Positions 8,112 through 40,474 of a stretch of DNA of 41,566 nt are shown here, piece by piece (within the stretch, counting starts at the first letter, position 1; each line of letters opens with the position of its first letter). A model generated the notes under the pieces. It did no database searches. It had not been told where the DNA came from and worked only from the letters and a program-made list of their open reading frames with translations. Source of the stretch: Actinomycetes bacterium (lineage in GTDB: Bacteria; Actinomycetota; Actinomycetes; S36-B12). The position numbers and the translations under genes are program-made. The stretch lies in assembly GCA_024641635.1 (NCBI GenBank), contig JAHECS010000028.1, positions 1 to 41,566 on the forward strand. The letters are read 5' to 3'.

Positions 8112-8197
8112 GTCGGCTATCCCACCACGCGGCGCCGCTTCAGGCACGCACCACAGGACCACCAGCGGGGCGTTGGTCAGCCCCACCCCACCCCCTA

Positions 8198-8268
8198 CCC
8201 CCGCCGACCTTGAGGTTGGCGCCCTTTTCCGGGCCGAAAACCAGCGCCAACCTCAAGGTCGGCGGGGG
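8198..8268 (-). terminator. Long palindrome (25-bp arms), likely terminator
   Basis: Two perfect 25-bp arms (8198-8222 and 8244-8268; arm core GCCGACCTTGAGGTTGGCGC) enclose a 21-nt centre that itself holds TTTTC and GAAAA. It begins 20 nt beyond the stop of the YkvA-like gene at 8289 and lies upstream of the ClC gene, so it probably ends the former transcript. It has no U-tract. It could also be a dispersed palindromic repeat, which needs whole-genome comparison. Confidence 0.6.
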
Positions 8269-8288
8269 TGGAGGGTGGGTGGAGGGGG

Positions 8289-8714
8289 TCAGGCGCGGTC
8301 GATGACCACGCCCTGGATGACGTCCCCCGACGGTGCGCCCTGCGACGGCACCTCGGCGCCATCGCGGGCATCGCGGGCATCGCGGGCATCGCGGGCATCG
8401 CGGGCATCGCGGGCGTCGAGCCAGTCCTCGGCCGACGACAGGAGGGCGGCGACCGCGACCGCCGCGAGCGCGATGTCATCGCCGAGGCCGAACGGCCCCA
8501 GCAGCGCCTCGGGCATGAAGTCGACCGGGGACACCACGTAGAGCAGGCCGGCCAGGCCGCCGAACACGCGCAGCCGCGGGGCACCGGGCCATCGGCCCCG
8601 CACCGTGTCACGGATCATGGGGATGACCGCCGCGAGCCTCTGCCCGAGCGGGTGCCGCCCACGGCTGGACCGGACAGCTCCGGCCACCGCGCTTGCTCCA
8701 CCAACGACACCCAT
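8289..8714 (-). CDS. YkvA/DUF1232 family membrane protein with ARD repeats
   Basis: A 141-residue protein. The central region, LRVFGGLAGLLYVVSPVDFMPEALLGPFGLGDDIALAAVAVAALL, is the DUF1232 (YkvA) domain with its SPVDFxPE motif between two hydrophobic segments. It is followed by six exact copies of Ala-Arg-Asp and a C-terminal GDVIQGVVIDRA. GAGGAGG lies 4-5 nt upstream of the ATG. The ARD tract is charged and probably helical or extended; since its unit is 9 bp, changes in copy number keep the frame. Function of the family is unknown. Confidence 0.82.
   Translation of the reverse strand: MGVVGGASAVAGAVRSSRGRHPLGQRLAAVIPMIRDTVRGRWPGAPRLRVFGGLAGLLYVVSPVDFMPEALLGPFGLGDDIALAAVAVAALLSSAEDWLDARDARDARDARDARDARDGAEVPSQGAPSGDVIQGVVIDRA
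8361..8414. repeat. Six tandem copies of a 9-bp repeat inside the YkvA-like gene
   Basis: ATCGCGGGC is repeated exactly six times (8361-8414) and is followed by the degenerate GTCGAGCCA. On the coding strand each unit is GCC CGC GAT (Ala-Arg-Asp). Identical units imply recent slippage and a likely length polymorphism among strains. Confidence 0.9.
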
Positions 8715-28086: not shown

Positions 28087-28763
28087 GCGGCTGCCACCAG
28101 CGACGTCAGGATGGACGTGAAGAACGGCAGGCCGTCGGTGGTCGGACCGGTGAGTGCCTCGACGGCATGCTCGGGGTGCGGCATGAGTCCGACCACGTTG
28201 CCGCGTTCGTTCCGGATGCCGGCGATGTCGCGCCGGCTGCCGTTGGGGTTCACCTCGAGGTAGCGGGCGATGACTCGACCCTCGCCCTCCAGCCGGTCGA
28301 GGGTGGCCTCGTCGGCGACGTAGCCGCCCTCACCGTTCTTCAGCGGGATGACGATCTCCTGCCCCGCGTCGAAGTCGGACGTCCACATCGACGTCACGTC
28401 CTCGATGCGCAGGCGTTGGTCGCGGCAGACGAAGTGCAGGGAGTCGTTGCGGGTGAGCGCACCGGGGAGGAGGTGCGACTCGCACAGGATCTGGAACCCG
28501 TTGCAGATGCCGAGCACGGGCAGGCCGCCTTCGGCCGCGGCGACCAGCGAGTGCATCACGGGTGCGAACCGGGCGATGGCCCCGCAACGCAGGTAGTCGC
28601 CGTAGGAGAAGCCGCCCGGCAGGACGACGGCGTCCACGGACTTGAGGTCATCGTCCCCGTGCCACAGGGGAATGGGCTCGCCTCCGGCGATGCGCACGGC
28701 ACGGGCGGCATCGCGATCGTCGAGGGACCCGGGAAAGGTGACGACGCCGATCCGCATCGTCAC
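28083..28763 (-). CDS. purQ: Phosphoribosylformylglycinamidine synthase subunit PurQ
   Basis: A 226-residue class I glutamine amidotransferase that supplies ammonia to Pur[39 protein letters not shown] (nucleophile Cys) and GLMPHPEHA (His, Glu) are present. GTG at 28763 overlaps the purS TGA (GTGA); ATG at 28757 is a near alternative. It overlaps purL by 4 bp. Confidence 0.97.
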
Positions 28764-29005
28764 GCCTCGACCCGCATCCGGTAGTCCTCGATGACCGGGT
28801 TGCTGAGCAGCTCCTCGGCGAGCTTGTGCATGAGCTCGAGCCGCTCGCCCTCGAGCTCACCGTCGACCTCGATGACGAACTGCTTGCCCTGACGGACGTC
28901 CGCGACCCCGGTGAGCCCGAGGCGGCCGAGAGCCCCCTGGACGGCACGGCCCTGCGGGTCGAGGATCTCCGGCTTGAGCATGACGTCGACGACGACGCGG
29001 GCCAC
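28760..29005 (-). CDS. purS: Phosphoribosylformylglycinamidine synthase subunit PurS
   Basis: An 81-residue PurS, the small structural subunit that lets PurQ dock on Pur[31 protein letters not shown] and [13 protein letters not shown] are the family landmarks. GTG at 29005 is chosen for AGGAG about 6 nt upstream and for the conserved start of the fold. It is the first gene of purS-purQ-purL-SCP. Confidence 0.96.
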
Positions 29006-29077: not shown

Positions 29078-29149
29078 GCCGAGAGGCATGGTGTGGTCGT
29101 GAAACGGGGCTCTGGAGCCCCGTTTCACGACCACACCATGCCTCTCGGC
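29078..29149. repeat. 72-bp near-perfect palindrome between purS and a DDN-like gene
   Basis: Two perfect 35-bp arms (29078-29112 and 29115-29149) are separated only by TG. Each arm reads GCCGAGAGGCATGG onward to GGGGCTC. It lies between divergent genes, so it is not a conventional terminator. It covers the -35 position of both promoters, with the DDN-like -10 box starting 3 bp beyond its edge. It may be a mobile palindromic element, a protein-binding site, or a cruciform-forming element. Confidence 0.85.
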
Positions 29150-29151
29150 AG

Positions 29152-29157
29152 TAGCGT
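29152..29157 (+). promoter_or_regulatory. -10 box of the second DDN-like gene
   Basis: TAGCGT, 6 nt before the GTG at 29164; leaderless. It abuts the 72-bp palindrome. Confidence 0.5.
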
Positions 29158-29163
29158 CCGAGC

Positions 29164-29634
29164 GTGGGCAGCCGGGGGTACGACCTGTGGTGGGGCACCG
29201 TGCTCCGGCTGACCACGGTCGGCCACAAGGTGCTCGACCGCGCGAGTGGCGGCCGGCTCGGCCGCCGCTTCCCCGGAGGCCAGCAGGTCGTCTGGATCAC
29301 CACGCTGGGACGGAAGTCCGGCGAATGGCGCCGATCCCCGCTGCTGGCCGTCCGCGAGGACCACGACCCGGCCAAGCCCTGGCTGGTCACCGGATCGAAC
29401 GCCGGGCAGTCCACCGTTCCCGGCTGGGTGTTCAACGCGCGCGCACACGAGAACGGGACGCTCGAGGTCGACGGAGTCACGACGCCCTGCCGGTTCGAGG
29501 AGGCGGTCGGCGACGACCGCGCACGCCTCTACGTGCAGCTCGTGGAGACCTGGTCGGCCTACGCGATGTACGCGAAGAACGCCGAGCGCGAGATCCCGGT
29601 GTTCCGGATCTTTCCCCAGATCGACGAGCCCTAG
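29164..29634 (+). CDS. Deazaflavin-dependent nitroreductase-fold protein (second DDN-like)
   Basis: A 156-residue DDN-family protein: FPGGQQVVWITTLGRKSGEWRRSPLLAVRE, WLVTGSNAGQSTVPGWVFNARA, then VDGVTTPCRFEEAVGDDRARLYVQLVETWSAYAMYAKNAEREIPVFRI. The TLGRKSGxxRxxPLL motif is stronger than in the copy at 20742, which supports F420 binding. It differs enough that recent duplication is unlikely. GTG start, leaderless. It is divergent from purS across the long palindrome and convergent with galE. Confidence 0.9.
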   Translation: MGSRGYDLWWGTVLRLTTVGHKVLDRASGGRLGRRFPGGQQVVWITTLGRKSGEWRRSPLLAVREDHDPAKPWLVTGSNAGQSTVPGWVFNARAHENGTLEVDGVTTPCRFEEAVGDDRARLYVQLVETWSAYAMYAKNAEREIPVFRIFPQIDEP

Positions 29635-40382: not shown

Positions 40383-40474
40383 GCCGCAGCCCAGCTGCGG
40401 CAACCCCGGAGTCCGGTCCGGGACAGATGCGCAGGGGTGGCCCGCTTCCGGGCCACCCCTGCGCATGTGTCCCG
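40383..40474 (-). terminator. fba terminator region with long hairpin
   Basis: The main hairpin (40419-40474) has 18-bp and 7-bp perfect stem segments separated by one G-G mismatch, with loop CTTC; its arm core is ATGCGCAGGGGTGGCCCG. It begins 22 nt beyond the fba stop at 40497. A second hairpin, GCCGCAGC-CCA-GCTGCGGC (40383-40401), follows. Together they probably end the fba transcript in the 154-bp gap before DUF3151. Confidence 0.6.

Follow-up and report, generated by a model that had tools for sequence, protein, structure and literature searches.

The 41,566-bp stretch of an Actinomycetes genome analyzed here (the window) contains a long palindrome between divergently oriented genes for PurS and a deazaflavin-dependent nitroreductase-like (DDN-like) protein, which raises the question of what this palindrome is and how it came to lie there. 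A first-pass annotation had described it as 72 bp long with 35-bp perfect arms, and this description was confirmed: the arms (29078-29112 and 29115-29149) are 100% complementary around a 2-nt centre, TG, while in 10 versions of the window randomized by a first-order Markov model, perfect arms reached only 9-14 nt. As RNA, the palindrome is predicted to fold with -75.4 kcal/mol; a search of Rfam gave nothing above the gathering threshold, only microRNA-hairpin look-alikes. The annotation also correctly placed the end of the palindrome just short of the -10-like box of the DDN-like gene (Table 1). This box fits TANNNT, and relatives have a -10-like box at the same place (TACGGT/TACCGT); the promoters are putative, and locally the palindrome has likely replaced the -35 regions of both.

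Table 1. Features of the window palindrome, its neighbors and a second palindrome in the window
Feature	Coordinates	Strand	Basis and remarks
F3 palindrome copy (CCGCCGACCTTGAGGTTGGCGC), distinct from F1	8187..8279	.	Second copy at L133:1786-1856
purS, divergent neighbor of the palindrome	28760..29005	-	
F1-family palindromic element, 72 bp (most F1 copies 65-77 bp)	29078..29149	.	Similarity searches and alignment
Outer box GCCGAGAGGCA, near-invariant across F1	29078..29088	+	F1 alignment and pair counts; mirror at 29139-29149
5-nt spacer TGGTG, variable, where two-sided changes among copies are concentrated	29089..29093	+	Alignment columns 15-19; paired with CACCA at 29134-29138
Inner box TGGTCGTGAAAC, core TGGTCG	29094..29105	+	Alignment; mirror at 29122-29133
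Inner stem GGGGCTC-TG-GAGCCCC, specific to the window copy, longer than in most copies	29106..29121	.	
Right-arm outer box TGCCTCTCGGC	29139..29149	+	
-10-like TAGCGT of the DDN-like gene	29152..29157	+	2 bp from the palindrome; putative promoter
DDN-like gene, probably leaderless, GTG start	29164..29634	+	

The exact 35-nt arm matched only the window locus in the own genome (G000; a 3.06-Mb draft in 82 contigs). A similarity search of this genome identified ~28 more copies, giving a family of ~29 that we refer to as F1. Once extracted, the copies were palindromes of the form CCGCCGAGAGGCA-n5-TGGTCGYGAAAC-loop followed by the mirror, with arms of ~31 bp, paired ends and unconserved flanks. The copies on C48 and C82 share an identical stretch of 66 bp that includes the loop, and their flanks are unrelated. 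Variation across F1 is found in the 5-nt spacer and the inner stem and is almost absent from the outer box and TGGTCG. Two-sided changes occur at 12 of the 31 arm pairs in the F1 alignment, with 69 matched cells compared to 21 in shuffles; such matched changes can result from either selection on the fold or correction between the arms. The idea that perfect arms reflect recent origin or correction is plausible: near-perfect arms are found in most copies, and where copies differ, the change on one arm is often matched on the other. The palindrome is unlikely to be an assembly artefact, since the same assembly has ~28 further copies in other contexts and independent genomes, including complete records, contain elements of the same kind.

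F1 is not the only such family. When 440 kb of the own genome was scanned for palindromes without bias, two more families in this size class emerged, F2 (TCGTTGAGTGCGGGGTTGTTGGG) and F3. Covariance and pattern searches recovered related elements from several genera within the bacterial family. In these elements, the outer sequence is particular to each genome, while the TGGTCG core of the inner box is often kept. The F3 copy in the window has 46-nt arms that are 87% complementary and lies 3' of a minus-strand gene; nearby, at ~8360-8412, tandem GCATCGCGG with a 9-bp unit lies in or near a short minus-strand ORF.

The synteny of purS and the DDN-like gene is conserved within the genus. The gap between them is 158 bp in the own genome (86 bp minus the palindrome) and ~79-102 bp in six same-genus genomes (G001, G003, G008, G009, G011, and G012). 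Because these six genomes have a short, empty allele, the window copy was most likely inserted in the own lineage; the exact insertion junctions are unreadable because the relatives are distant (57-74% DDN protein identity). The F1 site on C36 is empty in G012, with 6 bp between the stop codons, and that on C65 is empty in G001, while the C65 junction in G056, from another genus, carries an element of a different dialect. Searching the arm against the own genome and its relatives, as the first-pass annotation had recommended, thus returned the many copies expected of a dispersed element as well as an empty allele, and its suggestion of a mobile palindromic element is supported. Its alternative, an operator shared by purS and the DDN-like gene, is rejected, since the site is not conserved in relatives, being empty in six of them, and nearly all other copies lie at gene 3' ends. 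In another species (G002; L067, ~1950-2940), the purS-DDN junction carries an apparent CopG/VapB and PIN-domain toxin-antitoxin pair, and therefore this junction has taken up different insertions. A check for target-site duplications gave no convincing case, with a weak signal of no fixed length (mean match of 1.28 versus 0.88 in shuffled data, p=0.016).

The statement that the palindrome is not behind any gene is correct for the window copy and does not extend to F1, most copies of which lie 3' of genes, frequently with only 0-10 nt between palindrome and stop codon; these gaps are approximate because genes were called with our own codon-usage script. Among the 27 copies for which both neighbors were called, 16 are in a convergent setting (genome-sample background, 64 of 429; p=1.5e-7), 9 lie between tandem genes, adjoining the stop of the upstream gene, and 2 have divergent neighbors (the window copy and C68:5146). 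The convergent bias and the closeness to stop codons, together with a very stable fold in which two-arm changes preserve pairing, are what would be expected if the palindromes were bidirectional transcription terminators or mRNA 3'-end stabilizers that are kept alike within a genome. We regard this explanation as unlikely. The arms are not followed by a T-run (none at 29150-29165 or on the opposite strand), two copies lie between divergent genes, and many convergent gene pairs lack a palindrome. At C57:137798, moreover, the palindrome has an ordinary terminator-like hairpin alongside it in both G000 and G008. Conservation covers the box sequences besides the pairing, and the association with DUF559 genes described below would be secondary and its frequency (30/91 versus 0/797) unexplained. 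Termination may instead be a side effect of insertion, and F1 elements 3' of genes may similarly affect mRNA stability. The window also has a hairpin with 26-bp arms at 40419-40474, on the 3' side of a minus-strand gene; it resembles an ordinary terminator and belongs to none of the repeat families seen. On C68, three F1 copies lie within 3 kb (L029:3748-6792) among genes for PemK/MazF-like, methyltransferase, TetR regulator and mycothiol-isomerase-like proteins.

A Y1 (RAYT) transposase was rejected as the cognate enzyme: PF01797 had no match in the own genome and was positive in five control genomes. Instead, a gene for a 335-aa DUF559 protein (DUF559-A) lies between the F1 copies C57:136701 and C57:137798, and a second (DUF559-B), which had no match in phages, lies between the F2 copies C61:33472 and C61:34533. 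The third DUF559 match of the own genome (C61:133877) is a fragment without palindromes that adjoins a short tandem repeat; at L129:13850-14170 (C61:133850), this fragment is followed by tandem GCAGTGACCACTCGCAGGGGGTGCGC copies. In the own genome, DUF559-A is neighbored by genes for a transporter ATPase and a periplasmic binding protein; its layout is repeated in G008 at the same locus, where the neighbors are conserved. A mutually similar palindrome pair brackets 30 of the 91 DUF559 loci taken from across the bacterial family compared to 0 of 797 control positions (Fisher 1.5e-32); the controls were drawn from only three genomes (G000, G012, and G001), and the bracketed loci include near-duplicates (26 are left after removal of those >90% identical). 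The bracketing palindromes are ~0.9-1.2 kb apart and occur in direct as well as inverted orientation and are, therefore, not simple terminal inverted repeats. Counting any long palindrome nearby, the figures are 55 of 91 DUF559 loci and 42 of 800 control positions, and DUF559 is present in 13/14 genomes with F1-like palindromes compared to 32/68. Two thirds of the loci in the family-wide set have no detectable pair. In a class-wide sample, 193 of 296 genomes had a DUF559 match. Beyond the bacterial family the pair is rarer: among class-level loci outside the family-wide set, it was found at 2 of 50, with several more one-sided. Palindrome pairs are specifically linked to DUF559 in many genera.

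This linkage bears on a further explanation, namely that an unrelated, unseen insertion sequence gave rise to the palindromes as fully palindromic MITEs, with DUF559 lying between two of them by chance or as cargo. Their size and intergenic habit fit, and insertion sequences are often lost from draft assemblies. We nevertheless consider this explanation very improbable, as the pairs are specific to DUF559 in many genera and families, with a different palindrome sequence in each. Moreover, the own draft genome contains full palindromes only: no longer elements with F1 palindrome ends were found, nor any half-copies or single-arm, uptake-sequence-like occurrences besides one chance-like 17-bp match at a probable start codon (C47:26166). 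Plasmid records contained no F1 element.

The C-terminal domain of the DUF559 protein matches Pfam DUF559 above the cut-off and is a Vsr-like PD-(D/E)XK domain; a profile of 26 sequences of this domain matches PDB 3hrl (3.6e-8), PvuRts1I (2.5e-4) and 3r3p, a mobile-intron protein (3.8e-4). The residues E34, D66, E77, D79 and G80 of the aligned region (E, D, ExDG) are invariant in 26/26 DUF559 nucleases, and the nuclease is therefore under selection to stay active. The N-terminal half weakly matches PADLOC AbiEi models (1.6e-6 and 2.5e-7).

Nuclease and palindrome also diverge together. Among the 26 non-redundant loci, palindrome-arm similarity correlates with nuclease identity (Mantel r=0.38, p ~1e-4), and ExDG..K and ExDG..H nucleases have different palindrome types. 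This correlation is expected from linkage alone; it means that the pair travels together and does not imply that one binds the other. At the orthologous locus L196/L237, both flanking palindromes have switched dialect, with neighboring genes at ~80% DNA identity and the nuclease at 52%. DUF559-A of G000 and G008 is likewise 52% identical, compared to 85-90% for its neighbors. Because DUF559-A occupies the same locus in G008 and the DUF559 gene the same locus in L196/L237, the gene is mostly inherited vertically. A 4.2-kb DUF559 locus is 99.8% identical between L249 (G016) and L251 (G023), from genomes placed in different genera, reflecting either recent transfer or cross-contamination of the assemblies.

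A nuclease evolving much faster than its neighbors, an AbiEi-like N-terminal half and same-locus palindromes that switch dialect at both ends together would also fit if the palindromes were recognition or self-marking sites of an AbiEi-type defence or conflict nuclease, kept for control rather than spread. That explanation appears improbable to us: the AbiEii nucleotidyltransferase toxin partner was not seen beside DUF559-A, copies have been inserted where relatives are empty, and ~20-30 scattered copies 3' of genes would be superfluous for autoregulation.

Independent genomes repeat the arrangement. In G072 (5 contigs), the palindrome flanking the DUF559 gene is present in ~23 copies. Of the 21 copies outside the DUF559 unit, 12 are at most 180 kb away from it (p=4e-7, with the radius chosen post hoc), and identity did not vary significantly with distance from the unit (p=0.10). 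G250 (one contig) has the DUF559-palindrome unit and at least 5 dispersed copies. In Tsukamurella tyrosinosolvens NCTC13231 and Arthrobacter sp. ERGS1:01, a palindrome pair brackets the DUF559 genes EL451_RS09310 and AL755_RS00945, respectively, and more copies lie elsewhere in each strain, while Arthrobacter sp. StoSoilB13 has the palindrome found beside one of its DUF559 genes dispersed at 37 places on two replicons (both strands counted).

The bracketing of DUF559 genes suggests a bacterial system of mobile repeats whose enzyme had no earlier link to repeats of this kind. We consider it reasonably probable that the palindromes are REP-like, non-autonomous repeats spread by the DUF559 nuclease, i.e., a REPtron-like system with an unrelated enzyme. 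Spread by this protein would be the simplest account of the data and would parallel REP/RAYT systems (PMC3116915, PMC3733652, PMC8266576). The window palindrome would be a non-autonomous F1 copy, short and without a gene, copied to an intergenic site; such copies would be best tolerated at gene 3' ends and could form a hairpin or cruciform. The likely cognate enzyme of F1 is the AbiEi-like/DUF559 protein encoded between the two F1 copies on C57. Its N-terminal half would read the arm boxes, and its C-terminal domain would cut DNA at the palindrome, starting copying or transfer. The dispersal of the palindromes, the insertion at the window site and the linkage to DUF559 genes are shown by the data above; we infer the binding, cutting and spreading by the nuclease, as well as the strand chemistry. 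If correct, DUF559, a large and poorly understood nuclease family, gains a candidate DNA partner and a testable role, and proteins annotated as hypothetical, "DUF559" or "AbiEi family antitoxin" gain a function. Cultured Arthrobacter and Tsukamurella strains carry the layout, so the role can be tested there.

Bacteria commonly carry short dispersed palindromes, which in many lineages have no known source or means of movement. To our knowledge, the HUH-type RAYT is the only enzyme so far tied to them, and the literature searched reported no link of DUF559 to palindromes or of AbiEi to DUF559. ERIC, YPAL and RPE, which are tens to >100 bp long, are palindromic repeats of intergenic regions, and F1 resembles them in being intergenic and palindromic; we know of no link between them and a nuclease gene. 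I-Bth0305I (PDB 3r3p) represents the EDxHD/Vsr-like homing endonuclease family, in which a nuclease domain related to that of DUF559 (profile E=3.8e-4) serves mobility. Homing endonucleases, however, cut the intron-less allele of one site, whereas the DUF559 palindromes are many and dispersed, and two flank the gene.

The closest comparison is with the REPtrons, formed by REP/REPIN sequences and RAYT (TnpA-REP): their extragenic palindromes are dispersed and favor tandem and convergent intergenic sites, repeat copies flank the enzyme gene, enzyme and repeat co-diverge, and the enzyme is mostly inherited vertically while non-autonomous copies are dispersed (PMC3116915, PMC3733652, PMC8266576). 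The system described here shares the multicopy, dispersed extragenic palindromes (~29 in F1, ~23 in G072, and several in the Tsukamurella and Arthrobacter records) and the cognate repeats flanking an enzyme gene, with DUF559 in the place of RAYT. Unlike REPtrons, it has an AbiEi-like/DUF559 PD-(D/E)XK enzyme and, in the own genome, no Y1 HUH transposase. Its DUF559-linked palindromes are ~50-80 bp with two boxes per arm, and F1 arms pair to their ends over ~31 bp, whereas REPs are 20-40 bp with a stem of 5-13 bp and an unpaired GTAG or CGTC tag. Because enzyme and repeat structure differ from those that define REP-RAYT, we regard the F1/DUF559 system as REPtron-like but outside that family. 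CGTC-REPs, found mainly in alpha-proteobacteria, are likewise palindromic and have no dedicated transposase found, but have stems of 8-9 bp and the unpaired CGTC tag (PMC3733652); a link between them and DUF559 is speculation. Tentatively, and with slightly less than even confidence, we propose that AbiEi-like/DUF559 proteins form a second, evolutionarily independent class of palindrome-mobilizing enzymes, the PD-(D/E)XK counterpart of the HUH RAYTs, with one dialect each in actinobacteria and possibly related to the spreader of CGTC-REPs.
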